From positions 248,001 through 312,000 of the forward strand of contig NZ_LR215979.1 of assembly GCF_900683735.1 (NCBI RefSeq): a stretch of 64,000 nt of DNA, given 5' to 3'. The notes below the pieces were generated by a model. The model saw nothing but the letters and a program-made list of their open reading frames with translations, searched no databases and was not told the origin of the DNA. Of the stretch, positions 22,595-32,526 are shown one piece after another. Each line of letters starts with the position of its first letter. The stretch's first letter is position 1. The translations under genes were made by a program, and so were the position numbers. The DNA comes from Fusobacterium ulcerans ATCC 49185. Lineage in GTDB: Bacteria; Fusobacteriota; Fusobacteriia; Fusobacteriales; Fusobacteriaceae.

Positions 22595-24181
22595 TTAATG
22601 AAGAACTTCTCCATATTTTCCAATTAACTTTTCATCTTTCCATGTAATTTCTCCATTAACAAGGACATAATTCATTCCTGTAGAAAGATGATTAGAATTG
22701 TCAAAAGTTGCATTATCTCCAAGTTTATCAATATCAAAAATAAGTATGTCAGCAAAATTTCCTTCAGCTAAGACTCCACGTTTTTCATAACCTAGCCTTT
22801 TAGCAGGCATTTGTGTAATTTTATGTATACCTTCTTGTAATGAAAGAATTTTTAAATCTTTAATATAGTATTTAAGAAAATGAGTAAAAGCAGCCATTTT
22901 TCTAGGATGAGGAGTATCACTCTCATCATACAAAGCATCTGAAATTACAATTGAGTAAGGAAGTTTAGCAATTTTTATGATGTCATCTGGAGAAATATTA
23001 AAACCAACAATTCCTACTTTTCCATTTTCACTTTCAAGTAAACAAGATATAAATTCTATCTCATCTTTAAAGCCAGATTCAACAGTACATTGATGAATAG
23101 TTTTTCCTATATATTTTTTATTTTCTATTTTAGAAAGACTACTGATCATAGAATGTGACCAACGAAAATCAGGGTTGATATTCTCATCATTTGGACCTGG
23201 ATTTTGATAGCAATAACGCATCTTTTCCATGCTTTCTTTTGAGGTAATATTTTTTAAAATATCATCAAAATTTCTATCAAGAAAAGAAACTGGAAGAATT
23301 GCTGCTAATGTAGTGGCTGTTCCATGATAAGGATAAAAATCCACTGTAATATCCATTCCATTCTTTTGAGCATTTTCTATTAAATTAATTGCTTTAGTAA
23401 GTATTGTATTCCAGTTTTCTGGTCCCAATGCTTTTAAATGACTTATATGAAGAGCCATATCATTTTCCTGTGCAATCTCAATACTTTCTTTAACTGCTTC
23501 TACAAGCTTGGAAGCTTCATCACGCATATGAGGCATGTAAATCATATTTTTTCCTTTGCATGGAGCAAAAAGCCTTTTCATTTCTTCAGTAGTATTATAG
23601 ACTTCAGGGAGATATACTAAACCAGATGAAACCCCCTTTATTCCAAGATCAACAGCTTCTTTTATATATTCCTGAGCTTTAAGCATTTCTGTTTCAGTAA
23701 AAGGAGAAGTATCATATCCTTTTACTGCAAGCCTCACAGCTCCAGTACCTTGCAGTGTTGAAATATTAACAGGTTTGTCTATAGACTTCAAGTCACTGAT
23801 GTAGTCACTTAATTTTGAATATTTTGTATCCTTAACTGGATAGCCATGTGTTGGGACAGAATAATCGTATAAACCTTTAGATTTTTCTGTATATGGAGCA
23901 AAGGAAAAGCCACAGACACCAGTTCCAATAGTGGTTATTCCTTGAGCTAGTTCAATTTTTCCAAAATCTTCCTTGAAAATTGCTAAGTCACAATGTCTGT
24001 GAATATCAATAAATCCTGGAGTGACAATTTTATTTTTCGCATTTATGATTTCAGCATTTTCAAACTCTATATCTTTATCTATTTTTTCAATAATATTATC
24101 TTTAATGAGAATATCTCCAATAAAAGGTTTATTTTCCAGTGTTCCATCATAAATTAAACCATTTTTAATTAGTTTATACAT
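22595..24181 (-). CDS. N-acyl-D-amino-acid deacylase (second D-aminoacylase)
   Basis: This 528-residue amidohydrolase of the D-aminoacylase family resembles the gene at 5143-6720 in length and motif order but is clearly diverged. Motifs are FIDIHRHCDLA (metal HxH, with Arg in place of Gly between), GITTIGTGVCGFSFAPY (conserved cysteine), YMPHMRDEA, HISHLKALG, DFYPYHGTAT and IVISDALYDESDTPHPR near the C terminus. It should free a D-amino acid from an N-acyl or N-carbonyl derivative. The upstream partner is a PLP enzyme of the D-cysteine desulfhydrase/ACC deaminase fold, which could act directly on the released D-amino acid. It lies 11 bp from the PLP gene and 18 bp from the activator. Confidence 0.85.
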   Translation of the reverse strand: MYKLIKNGLIYDGTLENKPFIGDILIKDNIIEKIDKDIEFENAEIINAKNKIVTPGFIDIHRHCDLAIFKEDFGKIELAQGITTIGTGVCGFSFAPYTEKSKGLYDYSVPTHGYPVKDTKYSKLSDYISDLKSIDKPVNISTLQGTGAVRLAVKGYDTSPFTETEMLKAQEYIKEAVDLGIKGVSSGLVYLPEVYNTTEEMKRLFAPCKGKNMIYMPHMRDEASKLVEAVKESIEIAQENDMALHISHLKALGPENWNTILTKAINLIENAQKNGMDITVDFYPYHGTATTLAAILPVSFLDRNFDDILKNITSKESMEKMRYCYQNPGPNDENINPDFRWSHSMISSLSKIENKKYIGKTIHQCTVESGFKDEIEFISCLLESENGKVGIVGFNISPDDIIKIAKLPYSIVISDALYDESDTPHPRKMAAFTHFLKYYIKDLKILSLQEGIHKITQMPAKRLGYEKRGVLAEGNFADILIFDIDKLGDNATFDNSNHLSTGMNYVLVNGEITWKDEKLIGKYGEVLH

Positions 24182-24192
24182 AGCAACACCCC

Positions 24193-25287
24193 TTATAATT
24201 TCATAACTGTCACATGATCTTTTTCTTCATCTGACCATAATAATTTTTGTAAAGAATCACAATGTTCTTTTCCAAATAAACCAGGAGCACCTCCAGAATG
24301 AAGTAATACAGCATTTTCATTTGCTGGAATTATTTCTTTTTCTATTAAATCCACAAATCCTCTGAAAACTTTTCCAGTATAGCAAGGGTCAAGTATAATT
24401 GCTTCAGTAGAAGCCATAAGTTCTATATTTTTTTGAGTTTCTATATCAGGTTCATTGTAATTAGTACCCCCATAAGGAATTGCCTCATTACCTATTTCGA
24501 GATGAATATCTTCTTTTTTACATGTGAATCCCATATCAAAGAATTTACTGATTTCATTGATTGATTTTGCAGTATCTTCTATAGGAGTATAATCAGGTTC
24601 TATTGGAATACCAATAACCTCAAAAGGAGCATTGAAATATTTTGCTCCAGCCCATAAACCAGCAAAGGTACCTGTTGAACCATAGCCACATACAAGATAT
24701 TTAGCAGTGATATCCTGCTCTTTCATCTGTTTCATGATTTCAGGGACAAACATTGCATATCCTGCAGAGCCAATAACTCCTTGACCTCCTACAGGAATGC
24801 TCAATATTTTTTCTCCCTGCATTTCATATTTTTTTACAATTTTATCTGCACATTCCTGTAAGAATTTTTTTTCAGCAAAGTGACGTTCATCTTTTGGCAG
24901 ATTTTCAGCAGATGAGTAATCAACAAAATAAATATCTGCTCCCATCAATCTATCAAGCAAAAGATTTCCTGACAGATAATCAGGTTTCTTACCTTTTAAA
25001 ACCAAAATAGGTTTTAGTCCATATTTCACAGCTGCTGCAACAGTAAGCCTTCCATGATTTGTTTGAACACCACCAAATGTCATAAGTGCTGTATATCCAT
25101 TATCAATAGCATACTGAACCAGATATTCAAGCTTTCTGGTTTTGTTTCCTCCTAAAGCAAGTCCAGACATATCATCACGTTTAATATATAAGTTTCCTTT
25201 GCCAAGTTTTTTAGAAAGTTTTTCCATAAATTCAAGAGGAGTATTAGTATACCCAACATTAGCTTTTTTTAAATTTTCTATTTTCAT
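24193..25287 (-). CDS. PLP-dependent D-cysteine desulfhydrase / ACC-deaminase-like enzyme
   Basis: This 364-residue fold-type II PLP enzyme has its lysine at K49 in LALGGNKTRKLEYL. Other features are TFGGVQTNHGRLTVAA (substrate-binding Asn/His), SIPVGGQGVIGSAGYAMF, the phosphate-binding YGSTGTFAGL, and a C-terminal LLHSGGAPGLFG. Family members deaminate or desulfhydrate D-cysteine, D-serine-like substrates or ACC, giving a 2-oxo acid and ammonia. A first ATG at 25296 abuts the GGCGG site, so the ATG at 25287, nine bases from it, is the likelier start. It is first in the operon with the D-aminoacylase, which supports a two-step route from N-acyl-D-amino acid to 2-oxo acid. The exact substrate is inferred only. 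Confidence 0.85.
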   Translation of the reverse strand: MKIENLKKANVGYTNTPLEFMEKLSKKLGKGNLYIKRDDMSGLALGGNKTRKLEYLVQYAIDNGYTALMTFGGVQTNHGRLTVAAAVKYGLKPILVLKGKKPDYLSGNLLLDRLMGADIYFVDYSSAENLPKDERHFAEKKFLQECADKIVKKYEMQGEKILSIPVGGQGVIGSAGYAMFVPEIMKQMKEQDITAKYLVCGYGSTGTFAGLWAGAKYFNAPFEVIGIPIEPDYTPIEDTAKSINEISKFFDMGFTCKKEDIHLEIGNEAIPYGGTNYNEPDIETQKNIELMASTEAIILDPCYTGKVFRGFVDLIEKEIIPANENAVLLHSGGAPGLFGKEHCDSLQKLLWSDEEKDHVTVMKL

Positions 25288-25346
25288 TATAATCATCCGC
25301 CTTTAAAAAAATATTAAGGCAAATATTTAAGTTTATGTTCAACTGT

Positions 25347-25375
25347 ATTATAAGTGGGAAAAAATAACATGTCAA
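25347..25375 (-). promoter_or_regulatory. Consensus sigma-70 promoter for the PLP enzyme-deacylase-activator operon
   Basis: On the minus strand TTGACA (complement of 25370-25375) and TATAAT (complement of 25347-25352) are separated by exactly 17 bp, a perfect match in both hexamers. This operon therefore need not depend on its own sigma-54 activator. Confidence 0.85.
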
Positions 25376-25389
25376 GGGTATTTTATTAT

Positions 25390-25407
25390 ACAGGTTAAAT
25401 ATCCTGT
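25390..25407. promoter_or_regulatory. Inverted repeat, possible activator site in the 379-bp divergent region
   Basis: ACAGG-TTAAATAT-CCTGT (5-bp arms, 18 bp) lies about 160-175 bp upstream of the sigma-54 promoter, a suitable enhancer distance, and 15 bp upstream of the leftward -35. ATCCT or TCCTTATT elements recur to its right (25402, 25420, 25433 and 25462 regions). The rest of the gap 25288-25675 is AT-rich with nothing else recognisable apart from the two promoters. Confidence 0.4.
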
Positions 25408-25564
25408 TTAATTTTATTTTATCCTATTTATATCCTTATTACTCCAATTTATATTTTTATAATCCTTATTTTTGAAGATACAGTTATATATTTTTGGAAA
25501 AAAATAGATTGTTGATTTTAATTTAATTTTTAATTTCTTCTTTAATTGAGAAATCTAATAAATT

Positions 25565-25582
25565 TTGGCATAAGAGTTGCTT
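25565..25582 (+). promoter_or_regulatory. Sigma-54 (-24/-12) promoter of the NhaC-type gene
   Basis: TTGGCATAAGAGTTGCTT has GG at 25567-25568 and GC at 25579-25580 with 10 bases between. It closely resembles the ssnA promoter. The gene start is about 95 bp downstream. The divergent operon encodes the matching PrpR-like activator. Confidence 0.85.
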
Positions 25583-25675
25583 ATATAATAGACAAATGGT
25601 AAATAGAAAGTTTATGTTCAAAATTTTCTAACAAAGTAAAAGAATTATATAAAACATATAAAAGGAGAGATATTT

Positions 25676-27013
25676 ATGAAAGAAAAGAAATTAGGGGGTT
25701 CTGCTTTTATTCCTATGTTGGTTTTCCTTATTCTTTACTTGGGAAGTGGATGCTATTTTACAATAACTGGTGTAAGTAATGCATGGAATCTATTTCCACG
25801 TCATGCTGCAATATTTATTGGAATTATAGTAGCCTGTTTAATGTATAGACAGATGCCTTTCGAAACTAAAATGAAAAAGTTTTGCGTTGCAGCAGGTAAT
25901 GATGGTGTAGTAATGATGTGTATGATTTTCTTGGTTGCAGGAGCTTTTGCAGGGGTTGCAAAACAAATGGGGGGAGTAGCTAGTGTTGTAAATATGGGGC
26001 TTTCTTTTATACCAACAAGCTTTGTGCTTCCAGGAATATTTATAATTTCATCACTTGTTGCAACTGCTATTGGAACATCTTCAGGGACTCTTGTTGCAAT
26101 AGCTCCAATTGCTTTAGCAATTGCAGAAACAACAGGAACAAGTATTCCAATGTTTTTTGGAGCTGTTTATAGTGGAGCATTATTTGGAGATAACTTATCT
26201 ATTATTTCAGATACAACCATAGCAGCAACTAAAGGTGCTGGATGTGAAATGAAAGATAAATTTAAAATGAACTTTACTATTGCTTTACCTGCAGCTATAG
26301 TTTCTGCAATACTTTACTATATGGTGGGAAGTCATGTAACAATAAGTTCAGAAACACTTCCATATAATATATTGCTTATTTTGCCTTATATTTATGTAAT
26401 AGCAGCAGCAGTTAAGGGAATGGATGTATTTGTTGTTCTTGTTTCAGGAACATTCTTTGCAGGAATTGTTGGTATGTTTGCTGGAACTATGACAATGATA
26501 ACATTTGTTCAGTCTATTGGGACAGGAATGTCTGGAATGATGTCTACTGCAATAGTGGCAATGCTTTTAAGAGGTCTTATTGGATTGATTGAGGAATATG
26601 GAGGAATTGAATGGCTTATAAAAGTACTTCGCAGAAATGTTAAAACTCGTAAAGGGGCGGAATATTGTATTGGAGCTATGGCAGGAATATTGGACTTTGC
26701 ACTTATTAATAATACAATTGCAATAATGATAACAGCACCTATAGCAAAAGATATTGCAGATGAGCATCATATTTCTCCTAAACGTAATGCAAGTTTGATG
26801 GATATATTTGCCTGTGCAGTTCATGGACTTGCTCCACATGCTGGAGGTATGCTGACATTATCTGGATTCTATGCAGCATTGAATCCACTTGAAGTTGTTA
26901 AGTATAATTTCTATTGTTACTTCTTACTTTTAGCAGTAATTATTACAATACAGTTTGGACTTCTTCGTACTAAGGAAGAGAAGGAATATATAAAAAGTCA
27001 GGCAGGAGTTTAA
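25676..27013 (+). CDS. NhaC-family Na+/H+ antiporter-like transporter
   Basis: This 445-residue polytopic protein has 11-12 hydrophobic segments. It carries the NhaC hallmark AVYSGALFGDNLSIISDTTIAA (GDN and SDTT elements, residues ~165-185). The preceding GTSSGTLVAIAPIALAIA matches the family's re-entrant region. Known NhaC proteins exchange Na+ for H+, some coupled to amino-acid or malate/lactate exchange. Control by its own sigma-54 promoter, divergent from a D-aminoacylase/PLP operon with a dedicated activator, suggests it imports the pathway substrate rather than serving general pH control. The start has AAGGAGAG eight bases upstream. A bidirectional terminator follows. Confidence 0.82.
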   Translation: MKEKKLGGSAFIPMLVFLILYLGSGCYFTITGVSNAWNLFPRHAAIFIGIIVACLMYRQMPFETKMKKFCVAAGNDGVVMMCMIFLVAGAFAGVAKQMGGVASVVNMGLSFIPTSFVLPGIFIISSLVATAIGTSSGTLVAIAPIALAIAETTGTSIPMFFGAVYSGALFGDNLSIISDTTIAATKGAGCEMKDKFKMNFTIALPAAIVSAILYYMVGSHVTISSETLPYNILLILPYIYVIAAAVKGMDVFVVLVSGTFFAGIVGMFAGTMTMITFVQSIGTGMSGMMSTAIVAMLLRGLIGLIEEYGGIEWLIKVLRRNVKTRKGAEYCIGAMAGILDFALINNTIAIMITAPIAKDIADEHHISPKRNASLMDIFACAVHGLAPHAGGMLTLSGFYAALNPLEVVKYNFYCYFLLLAVIITIQFGLLRTKEEKEYIKSQAGV

Positions 27014-27136: not shown

Positions 27137-28744
27137 TTAGTATAAAGCAATATGTCCATCTGTTCTAGGTTCAGTTCCTCCTACAAGAACTCCATTTTCC
27201 ATTCTCCAGATGATCTCTCCTCTTCCCATCATAAGTGGATCATAAAGAACTTTTATATCATGTCCCATAGCCGCAAGCTCATATGCTATATGCTCAGGAA
27301 CTCCATGTTCAAGTTCTATATTTTTCTTTCCTACCCATTGCCATCTTGGTGCATCTAATGCTGCCTGTGGATTCATTAGGAAATCTACTGTATTAGTTAC
27401 TACCTGTACATGTCCTTGCGGCTGCATAAATCCTCCCATTACTCCAAATGGGCCTACAGCTTTTCCATCTTTTCCAAGGAATCCAGGAATTATTGTATGA
27501 TATGGTCTTTTTGCTGGTCCTACACAGTTTGCACTTTCAAGGTCAAGGTTAAAGTTATTTCCTCTGTTATGAAGAGCTATTCCTGTTCCTGGTACTACCA
27601 TTCCAGAACCAAATCCCATATAGTTGCTTTGAATATATGATATCATATTTCCTTCATTATCTGCTGCTGCAAGATATACAGTTCCTCCACAGAATGGATC
27701 TCCTGCTTCTGGCATTATTGCTGTATTTCCTATAAGTTTTGCTCTATCCTCTGCATATGCTTTAGATAGCAGCTGCTCAACTGTTACTTTCATAAATCTA
27801 GGATCAGCTACATATTTTTGTACATCTACAAATGCAAGTTTCATTGCTTCTATCATTGTATGATATGATCTTACTGTTTCTCTCGCTTCAAACTGGAATC
27901 TATCAAGAATATTAAGTGCCATAAGAGCGCTTATTCCATGTCCATTTGGTGGAAGTTCATAAACATCATATCCATGATATTTTACAGAAATAGGTTCTAC
28001 CCATTCTGCTTCAAACTCCTCTAAGTCATCTTTTCTAAGGTATCCATTATATTTTTTAGAGAATGCATCTATTTTATCTGCAAGCTCTCCTTTGTAGAAA
28101 GCATCTGCATAAGTATCACCTATCATTTCCAAAGTATCTGCATGATCAGGAAGTCTTACTATATCTCCTATCTCAGGACATTTTCCATCTTGAGTAAAAG
28201 TATCAAACCAAGGTTTAAATTCTTCTCCCTCTTCTTTTCCAAAGTTAACAGCTGCTTTCTTCCAAAGTTTAGCAACATTTACAGGTACAGCATACCCTTC
28301 TCTTGCTAACTTTACAGCTGGAGCTACAACTTCACTTAAAGGAAGTTTTCCAAATTTCTTGCTTAATTCTGCCCAAGCTTTAGGTATTCCAGGTACATTT
28401 ACAGGAATAAATCCATATTTAGGCATCTCTTTCAATCCTTTGTTTAAAAGGTCTTGAGCTTCAATAAGCTTTGGTGAAGGACCGCTGGCATTAAGTCCAT
28501 ACATTTTATTATTTACACTAAGGATAGCAAATCCATCTCCACCTATTCCATTACCTGTAGGCTCTACAACAGTAAGAGCAGCAGCAGTGGCAATAGCAGC
28601 ATCGATTGCGTTTCCTCCTTTTTTTAGTATTTCAAGTCCAGCCTGTGCAGCAAGTGGAGATCCAGTTGCCACCATACCATTTTTAGCATACATCACATTT
28701 CTTCTTGATGGATATGGATAAATAGTAGAATCAAATTTTAACAT
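27137..28744 (-). CDS. Gamma-glutamyltransferase family protein (no signal peptide)
   Basis: This 535-residue Ntn-hydrolase of the gamma-glutamyltranspeptidase family cleaves gamma-glutamyl bonds in compounds such as glutathione. The likely autocleavage nucleophile is Thr355 in FCGGTVYLAAADNEG. Upstream are NGIGGDGFAI and the ELPPNGHGISALMALNIL block (about 263-280). Downstream is the substrate-binding GSGMVVPGTGIALHNRG. Unlike periplasmic GGTs, the N terminus (MLKFDSTIYPYPSRRN) has no signal sequence, so it probably works in the cytoplasm on imported peptides. It is the last gene after a permease and a solute-binding lipoprotein, so those two may supply its substrate. Gaps in the operon are 51 and 33 bp. 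Confidence 0.88.
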   Translation of the reverse strand: MLKFDSTIYPYPSRRNVMYAKNGMVATGSPLAAQAGLEILKKGGNAIDAAIATAAALTVVEPTGNGIGGDGFAILSVNNKMYGLNASGPSPKLIEAQDLLNKGLKEMPKYGFIPVNVPGIPKAWAELSKKFGKLPLSEVVAPAVKLAREGYAVPVNVAKLWKKAAVNFGKEEGEEFKPWFDTFTQDGKCPEIGDIVRLPDHADTLEMIGDTYADAFYKGELADKIDAFSKKYNGYLRKDDLEEFEAEWVEPISVKYHGYDVYELPPNGHGISALMALNILDRFQFEARETVRSYHTMIEAMKLAFVDVQKYVADPRFMKVTVEQLLSKAYAEDRAKLIGNTAIMPEAGDPFCGGTVYLAAADNEGNMISYIQSNYMGFGSGMVVPGTGIALHNRGNNFNLDLESANCVGPAKRPYHTIIPGFLGKDGKAVGPFGVMGGFMQPQGHVQVVTNTVDFLMNPQAALDAPRWQWVGKKNIELEHGVPEHIAYELAAMGHDIKVLYDPLMMGRGEIIWRMENGVLVGGTEPRTDGHIALY

Positions 28745-28795: not shown

Positions 28796-29977
28796 TTAAA
28801 GAAGCTCAACAAATATTCCTGCAATAATTATAGAAATAGTGGTTACTGAAGCAAGTCCTGCAACAACATATGCTGGAATTATTCTTTTAAGTATAGCATT
28901 TTTTTCCTCTTCATCATCTGTAAGAGCAGTAGCTATTTCATTAGCAATAAGATAAGTAGCTGGGAATCCAAGAAGTTGTGCCATTGCAATACCCATTGCA
29001 AGATCTCTTGATCCAACTATTTTCCATGTAGGAAGTAAATAAATAAGTAGATATGTTCCTACAACAAATGCAGCAAAGATTATTAATAATTGGAATCCTA
29101 AAGTAGTAAGATCTCCAAAAGATATTTTAGCAAGAGATGGAATCAAACTTGCAAAAACAGCAAATGAAAGGAATCCAGAAACTTTTGCTTTATCAAGAAT
29201 AGCATTAGGAACAGCTCCACTGTATGAAAGTATAGTTCCTAATAAAAGTGCAGTGATACTTGCATTAAGTCCAGTTTTTTCCTGAACTAGTCTTGAAATG
29301 AAAGCAGCAGCAGCAGCAATAGCCATGCAAGTAAAAGAAGTAAAATATTTTTCATTCTTTTTAGCAAAAGTTATTCTAGCTTCTTTAACAGGAGCTTTTT
29401 TTTCATCAGTTGCAGCTTGAATTTTTCCTGCTCTGAATTGCTCAAGAACTTTTCTTCCTTCTCTCATACCAAAATATGACGCAGGAGGAGTTCCAACAAA
29501 TTTTTGAATAGCATATACCAAAGTACCAAGTGCAGCAACAGTTTGGAATCCTTTTTCCATAGCAGCACCAGTCATTATTTGAGTAGCAATAATTCCACCA
29601 TTGATAATAGGAATAGAAACAACAGCAGCTTCTTTTCCTACCAGAGGAACAACAGCAAAGACAGCAATAATTCCAACTATCATGGAAATAATAGCCATAA
29701 CTACAGTTCTCCATTCATCAATAAGTTCTTTTATATTGATCATAGTTCCCATATGGAAAATAAGTAAAGGAGCACTCCAAGCAGCTGATTGAGATAAACC
29801 TGCTTTTTGAATCATATCAGCTGGAATCATTTTAGTCATAAATCCTACTAAGAATAAAAACATTGCAACAAAAACTGATGAAAGCTTAGCTTTTGTAAAA
29901 ACTCCTAAAAAGTCACCTATTGCAAAGAATAGTACCGTTAAAAATAAAAATAAAAACATGTAACCTGCGTTCGTCAT
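28796..29977 (-). CDS. Uncharacterised secondary permease (about 10 membrane segments)
   Basis: This 393-residue integral membrane protein does not belong to a family I can name with certainty. It shows two halves of about five helices each. A polar, Lys-rich cytoplasmic loop separates them (residues ~180-215). Motifs include PIINGGIIATQIMTGAAME in the first half and GIAMAQLLGFPATYLIANE in the second. Both have the small-residue and polar breaks expected in a transport core. The general look is of GltS/LysO/2-keto-gluconate permease-type carriers. It lies between a peptide-type binding protein and a cytoplasmic GGT, suggesting uptake of a glutamyl compound or export of a product. Confidence 0.6.
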   Translation of the reverse strand: MTNAGYMFLFLFLTVLFFAIGDFLGVFTKAKLSSVFVAMFLFLVGFMTKMIPADMIQKAGLSQSAAWSAPLLIFHMGTMINIKELIDEWRTVVMAIISMIVGIIAVFAVVPLVGKEAAVVSIPIINGGIIATQIMTGAAMEKGFQTVAALGTLVYAIQKFVGTPPASYFGMREGRKVLEQFRAGKIQAATDEKKAPVKEARITFAKKNEKYFTSFTCMAIAAAAAFISRLVQEKTGLNASITALLLGTILSYSGAVPNAILDKAKVSGFLSFAVFASLIPSLAKISFGDLTTLGFQLLIIFAAFVVGTYLLIYLLPTWKIVGSRDLAMGIAMAQLLGFPATYLIANEIATALTDDEEEKNAILKRIIPAYVVAGLASVTTISIIIAGIFVELL

Positions 29978-30010: not shown

Positions 30011-31528
30011 TTAAAATTCAATGTCTTTTATAACATGGAAATATGTAGATCTAAATTTAAAGTTTTTGATATTTTTTCTCATAACCATATTATCCATTGA
30101 ATAATAAAGTGGGACACAAGCAATATCATCTTGAATCATTTGTTGAGCTATTTCATAGTTATGTTTTCTTTCTGCTGGGTCAGAAGTAGCTCTTCCAGCT
30201 TCTATATATTTATCAAGTTCAGGATTTTTATATCTTCCATGGTTACCAGCTGCTCCAGCTGAACTACTGTGATATAGTGGGAAAAGGATATTATCAGAAT
30301 CTCCAGTTCCTCCGCTCCAACCCCCAAGTTTCATCTCAAAGTTTGCATTAGCAAGATCTTGAAGATAAGTAGCCCATGCTACAACTTCTATTTCAAGTTC
30401 TAATCCTATTTCTTTAAGATTTGATTGAATAATTTGTGCTACTTGTACTCTTGATGGATTATCATTAGTTATTATTTTTAATTTAGTTCCAGTTAAACCA
30501 TTTTCTTCAACTATCTGTTTAGCTTTTTCCATATCCCTAGGAAGACCAGTTACTTTATCTGAATATCCAAAAGCCACATTACTAACTGGTGAGTTTGCTT
30601 CAATAGCAAGACCATTATAGATGGCATCTATAATCCCCTTTTTATCTATAGCCATAGCAATAGCTTCTCTAAGAGCTTTGTTATGGAATTTTTCTTTATC
30701 AAAGTTAAATGTAATTGCTTCAGTAAGAACTACAGGTTTACTTATAATTACTAAATCAGGATTATTTTTAAGATTTTCTAAATCAATAGGTGCAACTGTA
30801 TAAGCAATGTCTATATCTTTTGCTTCTAGTGCCATAGCTCTCGCAGTATTTTCTGTTATAGTTTTAACTAGAAGCTTGTCAAATTTAGGTGCTCCTTGGA
30901 AATGATCTTTGAAAGATTCTAAAGTAATCTGTTCCCCAGTTCCCCATTCAATAAGCTTGAAAGGTCCAGTTCCAATACCAGCTATAGAAAGATCATCATT
31001 TTGTTCTTTTACACTTCTCTCATTCAATATAGAAGTTCTTGGATGAGCAAGATTATACAATATTGATGAGAAAGGTTTTGACAGAGTAATTTTTACAGTA
31101 TAGTCATCAAGTGCCTCTACTCCTGAAATAGGATCAACCATAACCATACTTGCTGGTTTATTTTTCATTCTATTAATACTGAATACCACATCTGAAGCTT
31201 TTAATTCATCACCATTGTGAAATTTAACTCCTTTTTGCAATTTGAATATAAGTGTAGTAGGATCTTTAAATTCCCAGCTTTCAGCTAATTCAGGAACTAT
31301 GTTTCCATTTTCATCTATCTCTACCAGACTGTTAAAAATCTGTTGAGACATTATTCCCCCAATTACTTCTGAATACATGTGTGGATCAACACCTTTTGGT
31401 TTTCCATTTAATCCGACTCTTAAAACTTGTTCCTTTTTAGGTTTTTCAGTTCCTGCTGTTTTTTCTGCTTTATCAGAACATCCTATGAGTCCCAACATCA
31501 CCAGAAAGATAAAAAATATTTTTTTCAT
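30011..31528 (-). CDS. Solute-binding lipoprotein, peptide/nickel ABC type (family 5)
   Basis: This 505-residue extracytoplasmic binding protein of the oligopeptide (SBP family 5) type has the lipobox in LGLIGCSDK, so Cys17 should be lipidated. Typical elements are QVLRVGLNGKPKGVDPHMYSE at the mature start, LVEIDENGNIVPELAESWEF, FKLQKGVKFHNGDELKASDVVFS, and GWSGGTGDSDNILFPLYHSS near the C terminus. Such proteins normally deliver di- or oligopeptides to an ABC permease, but no ABC permease or ATPase genes are here. The next gene is a secondary permease. It may share a transporter encoded elsewhere. The gene follows a structured leader with a small reading frame and a terminator hairpin. Confidence 0.9.
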   Translation of the reverse strand: MKKIFFIFLVMLGLIGCSDKAEKTAGTEKPKKEQVLRVGLNGKPKGVDPHMYSEVIGGIMSQQIFNSLVEIDENGNIVPELAESWEFKDPTTLIFKLQKGVKFHNGDELKASDVVFSINRMKNKPASMVMVDPISGVEALDDYTVKITLSKPFSSILYNLAHPRTSILNERSVKEQNDDLSIAGIGTGPFKLIEWGTGEQITLESFKDHFQGAPKFDKLLVKTITENTARAMALEAKDIDIAYTVAPIDLENLKNNPDLVIISKPVVLTEAITFNFDKEKFHNKALREAIAMAIDKKGIIDAIYNGLAIEANSPVSNVAFGYSDKVTGLPRDMEKAKQIVEENGLTGTKLKIITNDNPSRVQVAQIIQSNLKEIGLELEIEVVAWATYLQDLANANFEMKLGGWSGGTGDSDNILFPLYHSSSAGAAGNHGRYKNPELDKYIEAGRATSDPAERKHNYEIAQQMIQDDIACVPLYYSMDNMVMRKNIKNFKFRSTYFHVIKDIEF

Positions 31529-31556
31529 TTTCTCCCCCTTAAAAAAATTTAATAAA

Positions 31557-31595
31557 AAAGCTTAGGTCTATAAATATAGAATAGGCCTAAGCTTT
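31557..31595 (-). terminator. Intrinsic terminator in the leader of the binding-protein operon (candidate attenuator)
   Basis: On the minus strand the perfect 10-bp arms AAAGCTTAGG and CCTAAGCTTT (complements of 31586-31595 and 31557-31566) are followed directly by a T-rich run, and the gene's AAGGGGGAG site comes next. It therefore sits inside the 5' leader, not after a gene. Upstream, CAAGCCT and AGGCTTG (complements of 31643-31649 and 31612-31618) form a 7-bp stem. The AGGCTT strand can alternatively pair with the AAGCTT of the terminator arm. This permits competing terminator and antiterminator structures. Confidence 0.7.
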
Positions 31596-31690
31596 AACCC
31601 CTTTTTAATCCCAAGCCTCTTTGTATTTTGTATACTGAAAACAGGCTTGATTAACATAAGAAATATTATGTGAAAAATCAACCCTTTAAA

Positions 31691-31750
31691 TCATGATATG
31701 AGTAGTGTATGTATATATATTATGACTTTTTTTAAAGTGTTGCTTAACAT
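31691..31750 (-). CDS. Putative 19-residue leader peptide
   Basis: A short reading frame, MLSNTLKKVIIYIHTLLIS, follows an AAAGGAG site at ideal distance. It begins about 45 bases downstream of the predicted promoter start. The stop lies about 40 bases before the first leader hairpin. It contains four Ile and four Leu codons, including CTA and CTC, which look uncommon here beside TTA and CTT. Together with the downstream hairpins this looks like a translation-dependent attenuator peptide. The composition is not extreme, so it could also be a chance frame with a good ribosome binding site. The remaining bases of the gap 31529-31839 are the promoter and the hairpins described separately. Confidence 0.5.
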   Translation of the reverse strand: MLSNTLKKVIIYIHTLLIS

Positions 31751-31792
31751 AAAATATCTCCTTTTTCAATTGAATTTTTGTTTATGGTATTA

Positions 31793-31842
31793 ATAGTACT
31801 ACTTTTTTTTTCATGTGTCAATATTTTTTTATTGTAGTACTA
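31793..31842 (-). promoter_or_regulatory. Promoter of the binding-protein operon flanked by two TAGTACTA operators
   Basis: On the minus strand TTGACA (complement of 31816-31821) and TACTAT (complement of 31793-31798) have a 17-bp spacer. Two copies of the self-complementary octamer TAGTACTA (31794-31801 and 31835-31842) lie with centres 41 bp apart. One overlaps the -10; the other is upstream of the -35 and overlaps the stop codon of the DUF554 gene. With the adjoining C/G they form a 9-bp inverted repeat. Occupation of both by a dimeric repressor, possibly GntR type, is inference. Confidence 0.65.
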
Positions 31843-32526
31843 AAAAAATGATATGATAACTTTATATATAATAGGAATGAATAATGCTGGCATAAGATTT
31901 CCTATTTTTATATCTTTATTGAATAAAAGATTTATTCCTAACCCTATCATCATAAGACCTCCCACAACAGATATCTGATTGATGACAGCATCATCTAATC
32001 CACTTTTTATAAAAAAAGCAAAAAGAAATATGGACCCTTGATATACAAATACAGTAACTGCAGAGAATAAAACTCCTATTCCATATTTTGATGAAAAAAT
32101 AAGTGAGGCAACTCCATCAAGAAGTGCTTTTATGAAGAGGATTTCATTATTACCAGAAAGTCCACTTTTTATAGAACCAACAATAGCCATTGCTCCTACA
32201 TTAAACATAATACTGGTGGTAACAAAACCCTTAACTATATCATTTCCACCATTTTTAGAAAATCTTTTTTCTAAATAAACGCCAAGCATAGTAAGTCTTT
32301 CATCTATTCTCAAAAGTTCTCCAATGATTCCACCAATAACCATAAATAATATTATGAGCATACCATTATCAAAGTTTATTCCATCTTTAATTCCTAAAGT
32401 TAATATGGAAAGTCCCATAGAAGTCATTATTATATCTTTTATTCTGTCAGGAATACCTTTTTTCAGCCACATACCAAGTAGGCTTCCAAGAATGACAGCA
32501 GCTGTATTTACAATATTTCCCAGCAT
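31840..32526 (-). CDS. DUF554 family membrane protein
   Basis: This 228-residue integral membrane protein matches DUF554 (YdfK-like): about seven hydrophobic segments, starting MLGNIVNTAAVILGSLLGMWLKKGIP. The conserved central block FVTTSIMFNVGAMAIVGSIKSGL (residues ~103-125) follows, then KALLDGVASLIFSSKYGIGVLFSA. The C terminus has the GLMMIGLGINLL segment. Family function is not established; a transporter or channel role has been suggested. It is 24 bp downstream of a HAD phosphatase and probably cotranscribed. Its stop codon overlaps a TAGTACTA operator of the next transcription unit. The start has a GGGGGAAT site. Confidence 0.85.
   Translation of the reverse strand: MLGNIVNTAAVILGSLLGMWLKKGIPDRIKDIIMTSMGLSILTLGIKDGINFDNGMLIILFMVIGGIIGELLRIDERLTMLGVYLEKRFSKNGGNDIVKGFVTTSIMFNVGAMAIVGSIKSGLSGNNEILFIKALLDGVASLIFSSKYGIGVLFSAVTVFVYQGSIFLFAFFIKSGLDDAVINQISVVGGLMMIGLGINLLFNKDIKIGNLMPALFIPIIYKVIISFF

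Follow-up and report, generated by a model that had tools for sequence, protein, structure and literature searches.

The leader of about 250 nucleotides that lies on the minus strand between a promoter and a peptide-binding lipoprotein gene of the AT-rich bacterium Fusobacterium ulcerans ATCC 49185 is probably a ribosome-mediated transcription attenuator, in which six competing RNA segments are wired as in the his operon and the decoding of leucine or isoleucine codons may be sensed. The leader, which holds a 19-codon open reading frame (ORF) and a strong terminator, was analysed within a stretch of 64,000 nucleotides (the window, to which coordinates refer), and was compared with its counterparts in three congeneric species. 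A broader reading, in which peptide scavenging (by the lipoprotein, a transporter and a gamma-glutamyltransferase) is placed under a Leu/Ile-codon leader through the six-segment attenuator, as a his-type starvation sensor acting on nutrient uptake in Fusobacteria, is tentative, and we would put it somewhat short of an even chance.

Locus, promoter and distribution of the leader

The good promoter that a first-pass annotation of the window had placed upstream of the lipoprotein gene was found as TTGACA-17-TACTAT (31793..31821, minus strand), matching the consensus at 10 of 12 positions, with TTGACA running from 31821 and the -10 box ending at 31793; from the sequence, a transcript start is predicted near 31785. 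Across the four species the -35 box is identical and the -10 box reads TACTAT or TAATAT. Three genes follow on the same strand: one for a binding lipoprotein of the SBP_bac_5 (oligopeptide/dipeptide) type (30011..31528; Pfam PF00496, E = 8e-96), whose ATG at 31528 is preceded by a Shine-Dalgarno (SD) sequence; one for a hydrophobic protein of 393 amino acids, a presumed transporter, which had no match in searches of Pfam or NCBIfam (28796..29977); and one for a gamma-glutamyltransferase (GGT; 27137..28744), which scored above the cut-off of TIGR00066 and matched PF01019.

The leader was found in three further species of the genus (G001, G002 and G003), each time upstream of the orthologous lipoprotein gene. 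A DNA search detected it in none of the rest of the 61 genomes of the family, the similarity in G063 being limited to the promoter, and public genome and viral contigs, with near genomes left out, yielded no match. In the closest transporter-GGT pair elsewhere (G022), the leader is missing and no lipoprotein gene lies immediately upstream. Within the window's own genome, where a covariance model was also run, the leader is single-copy, which ruled out a repeated or mobile element. Two other identities were tried and rejected. A T-box or other riboswitch or leader of Rfam 15 gave no match in the window at the gathering score, and a permissive scan of the leader returned sub-threshold hits only; and a general leader of oppA-type genes did not fit, since 16 further homologous loci of the genus have unrelated upstream regions that lack it. 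As an internal control, an ilv operon preceded by a comparable leader was sought, but the sole ilvD-family gene adjoins a permease-like gene and carries no such leader.

Leader ORF and competing RNA segments

The leader ORF, which had been marked in the first-pass annotation as a 19-codon frame with a strong ribosome binding site, comprises 19 codons and a stop (31691..31750, minus strand; MLSNTLKKVIIYIHTLLIS) behind the SD sequence AAAAAGGAG. When leaders were generated at random from a Markov model, 1.6% of them held an ORF of 18 or more codons behind an SD. All four species keep the frame with its start, stop and SD, the peptides being MLSNTLKKVIIYIHTLLIS in the window and MSSNTLKTVIIYIHILLIS, MVSNTLKTVIYIHILLIS and MLSNTLKIVTIYTYILLIS in the others. 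The frame tolerates one in-frame deletion of 3 nucleotides, the stop alternates between TGA and TAA, and GGAG stands 6-7 nucleotides from the ATG throughout despite changing surroundings. A substitution test for coding gave p about 0.09, which is suggestive only. Taken from sequence, the evidence for translation of the ORF is moderate.

Ahead of its stop the ORF reads CUA CUC AUA UCA, with UUA CUC in place of the leading pair in G003. CUA and CUC are rare in the window (6% and 4% of leucine codons), and isoleucine, leucine and valine make up 9 of the 17-18 leader residues (p about 0.02 if a background of 25.5% is assumed). Among the tRNA genes that were looked at are one tRNA-Leu(GAG) and two tRNA-Leu(UAG). 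No match to leuA was found above the cut-off, so that leucine probably must be taken up. The conserved rare leucine codons, the content of branched-chain residues and the absence of leuA suggest that the signal is branched-chain amino acids, leucine first; that the ORF has no run of identical control codons counts against the attenuator reading.

When the 237-nt leader was folded, its stability stood well apart from that of dinucleotide shuffles (z = -4.0; 0 of 200 shuffles as good), and six segments, all on the minus strand, could be delineated directly in the sequence. Segment 1 (CAACACUUUAAA, 31731..31742) lies inside the ORF at codons 3-7, which are nearly invariant across the four species, as expected if these codons double as a pairing strand; it forms 4 + 7 bp around one mismatch with UUUAAAGGGUUG, a part of segment 2 (UUUAAAGGGUUGAUU, 31676..31690) directly 3' of the stop codon. 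Segment 2 can instead pair with segment 3 (UUAUGUUAAUCAAGCCU, 31643..31659), GG.UUGAUU...ACAUAA joining UUAUGU.AAUCAA.CC in a hairpin that runs on through ACAUAA at 31666-31671. Segment 3 in turn offers CAAGCCU to the AGGCUUG of segment 4 (AGGCUUGGG, 31610..31618), which is invariant in the four species; this is the 7-bp stem CAAGCCT/AGGCTTG (31649-31643 / 31618-31612) that had been noticed beforehand. All nine bases of segment 4 can alternatively pair with segment 5 (CUUAGGCCU, 31583..31591), which lies in the 5' arm of the intrinsic terminator. The terminator itself (segments 5 and 6 with a U tract, 31551..31595; hairpin 31595-31557) has a folding energy of -15.4 to -16.8 kcal/mol in the four species, with invariant arms and a loop of varying length, and stands, as previously proposed, just before the SD of the lipoprotein gene. 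Its loop is too long for a simple terminator scan, which lists no terminator in the window. The pairings thus form a chain in which 1:2, 3:4 and 5:6 (the terminator) are set against 2:3 and 4:5 (the antiterminator).

Folded alone, the 2:3 hairpin reached -8.9 to -9.6 kcal/mol and the 3:4 hairpin -10.4 to -11.4 kcal/mol. The antiterminator pairing AGGCUUGGG:CUUAGGCCU (9 bp) came to about -10 kcal/mol in each of the four species, where its strands are shared with the 3:4 hairpin and the terminator, and it is mutually exclusive with the latter. The alternative pairing first pointed out, AGGCTT with AAGCTT (6 bp), does exist, but as a weaker variant of 4:5, whose short fragment folds at -4.9 kcal/mol, and not as the best pairing available.

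Conservation follows these segments. Variable columns numbered 3 of 72 in stems and 29 of 100 in loops and spacers (Fisher p = 1.8e-5), no stem contains an insertion or deletion, and the spacers that separate the stems all differ in length among the species. Divergence of the leader is about half that of fourfold-degenerate sites in the downstream gene. Changes in segments 2 and 3 retain most of the 2:3 hairpin in the folds, partly by re-registering in G001 and G003. Covariation in related species, which had been put forward as a check, did not appear in a proper form because the four sequences are too close. The idea of a leader-peptide attenuator has thus gained support, frame, SD and competing stems all being kept in the four species, and the architecture is richer than first described.

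Control sequences gave a mixed picture. A 4:5 pairing of equal strength occurred in 1.0% of controls in which the base pairs of 3:4 and the terminator were permuted (5.0% if pairs were also allowed to flip), and a 2:3 pairing of equal strength in 1.6% of those in which CAAGCC was permuted. The 1:2 pairing was matched by 4-7% of codon-order shuffles in three species, and by 42% in G001, where it is weak. A general score, the cost of freeing the terminator arm, was no more favourable than for shuffled leaders, both observed differences being reached by 90 of 600 shuffles for the window and by 38 of 600 for G003. We count this score as evidence against the switch; one reason why it fails to discriminate is that the arm is covered by a local GGG/CCU hairpin as well.

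Computed switching and alternative readings

The switch is a computed one, based on partition functions for the transcript as far as segment 5, with the ribosome modelled by making unavailable either all RNA up to its leading edge or its footprint only. With no ribosome present, the probability of 3:4 was 0.84-1.0. With a ribosome stalled in the ORF and all RNA up to its leading edge unavailable, the joint probability of 2:3 and 4:5 rose to 0.81-0.98 for codons 1-17 in the window, 0.77-0.97 for codons 1-17 in G003 and 0.67-0.82 for codons 5-15 in G002, and it fell to about zero in all four species once the ribosome had reached the last sense codon or the stop codon. In G001, 3:4 was favoured even with a stalled ribosome, 2:3 plus 4:5 being worse by 1.6 kcal/mol. 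Minimum free energy folds of the growing chain gave the same switch in three species. In these models the position of the ribosome would thus select the fold in three species, G001 being equivocal. When the footprint only was blocked, no switch was obtained for stalls beyond about codon 6 (window), 12 (G002) or 10 (G003), so that a late stall would need trailing ribosomes or steric blocking; this limit to early stalls is awkward for control codons at positions 16-18.

We infer from these pairings how translation of the ORF, stalling, the amino acid sensed and termination could be connected. Were the ORF free of ribosomes, 1:2 and 3:4 would pair, the terminator 5:6 would form and the operon would be off. 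A ribosome that reached the stop codon would cover segment 2, so that 3:4 and the terminator would again form, with the same outcome. A ribosome stalled inside the ORF would keep segment 1 off segment 2 and let 2:3 form; segment 4, freed in this way, would capture the terminator arm (AGGCUUGGG:CUUAGGCCU), and polymerase would read on into the lipoprotein-transporter-GGT operon. Such a stall would most likely come about where leucine or isoleucine codons are read slowly (CUA/UUA-CUC-AUA, close to the ORF's end), and a shortage of branched-chain amino acids would thereby switch on peptide scavenging.

The same six-segment switch could also be set by a ribosome that its nascent peptide arrests in concert with an antibiotic or small molecule, in the manner of ErmCL or TnaC, and not by scarce aminoacyl-tRNA. 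That the computed switch operates for a stall at almost any codon suits such an arrest, as do the conservation of the last codons (LLIS) in both nucleotides and residues and the lack of any long stretch of a single amino acid. Residues in the peptide's middle part are free to vary, however (K/T/I, I/T and H/Y), and the downstream genes serve the use of peptides and not drug resistance; we consider this alternative unlikely.

Next in plausibility, and improbable in our judgement, is a constitutively leaky terminator that lets through a fixed fraction of transcripts, the ORF and hairpins having no regulatory role. It would leave unexplained why segments 2, 3 and 4, which lie outside the terminator, are nearly invariant, why the antiterminator shares its strands with the competing structures, and why frame and SD are kept. 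Its case draws on the fact that regulation rests on computation, on the terminator-arm score that did not exceed shuffles, and on G001, which lacks a switch in equilibrium folds.

Least probable, and in our view very doubtful, is that promoter, ORF and terminator constitute an independent small gene (for a small RNA, a secreted peptide pheromone or a type I toxin-like peptide), with the operon served by its own promoter or by accidental read-through: promoter, SD, ORF and terminator do make a complete unit, a hydrophobic peptide is encoded beside a gene for a peptide-binding protein, and weak promoter-like sites (9 of 12) fall within the terminator region of G002, but many ORF substitutions change the residue, conservation is higher in the hairpins 3' of the ORF than within it, the window has no promoter-like site between the terminator and the lipoprotein gene, and the unit was found only before the lipoprotein-transporter-GGT operon.

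Known attenuators and genomic surroundings

The his-operon attenuator of Escherichia coli and Salmonella has six segments, A-F, of which AB, CD and EF (the terminator) compete with BC and DE. Like it, the attenuator proposed here has a leader ORF with the first pairing strand in or next to its codons, and the register of 1:2, 3:4 and 5:6 against 2:3 and 4:5 matches. It differs in that the his leader has a run of seven histidine codons where branched-chain residues are found here, that his controls biosynthesis and the present operon peptide uptake and hydrolysis, and that the sequences are unrelated. Leaders of the ermC and tnaC types sense a drug or free tryptophan via the nascent peptide, ermC acting on translation and tnaC through Rho. 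They too combine a short ORF with downstream RNA that folds or fares differently according to the position at which the ribosome stalls, whereas the intrinsic terminator found here implies control of transcription.

The his mechanism has been summarised elsewhere (PMC9413887), and leader-peptide attenuators are known mainly from amino-acid biosynthesis operons of Proteobacteria, Actinobacteria and some Firmicutes (PMC2965389, PMC9413887, PMC5794164). In Staphylococcus aureus, the ilv-leu operon is preceded by a leucine-rich leader ORF with isoleucines before an intrinsic terminator, for which sensing of branched-chain amino acids was proposed and is supported by mutants (PMC5794164). A leucine-rich ORF with isoleucine, an intrinsic terminator and a host outside Proteobacteria are shared with our case; the S. 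aureus leader controls biosynthesis and has experimental support from mutants, whereas the case here rests on sequence and folding. The histidine leader-peptide attenuators of Firmicutes hisS/hisZ, found through a search for premature terminators (PMC2965389), likewise lie outside Proteobacteria and Actinobacteria, but have a stretch of histidine codons, precede synthetase-like genes and belong to another phylum.

The first-pass annotation knew of no attenuator described for operons of this kind, and a literature search, being thin on subscription papers and so only weak evidence of absence, similarly turned up none from Fusobacteria and none ahead of an operon for peptide uptake. What we see is probably the well-known his-type mechanism in an unusual place, ahead of a peptide-uptake operon. 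If so, the range of leader-peptide attenuators would be widened both phylogenetically (to Fusobacteria) and functionally (to a peptide-uptake operon), and a way would be suggested in which an amino-acid-fermenting bacterium couples peptide scavenging to tRNA charging.

Some further features of the locus were recorded. An inverted repeat (AGTACTAC / GTAGTACT, with 31 nucleotides between its arms) surrounds the -35 box of the leader promoter at 31783-31853, with a single change in its second half in G002 and G003, and may be an operator or have arisen by chance. The 393-aa hydrophobic protein, a candidate for an unnamed transporter family, is related to proteins from several genera of the Fusobacteriaceae, and its gene is also adjacent to GGT in G022. 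In G001 the transporter gene (L077 8990-10086) falls into two frames of 229 and 148 aa that overlap, as if frameshifted, with intact flanking genes. Neighbours of the operon at 22595-27013 encode an NhaC-like antiporter, a PLP enzyme of the D-cysteine desulfhydrase/D-cysteate sulfo-lyase type and a D-aminoacylase-like amidohydrolase, and possibly constitute a sulfur or D-amino-acid pathway.
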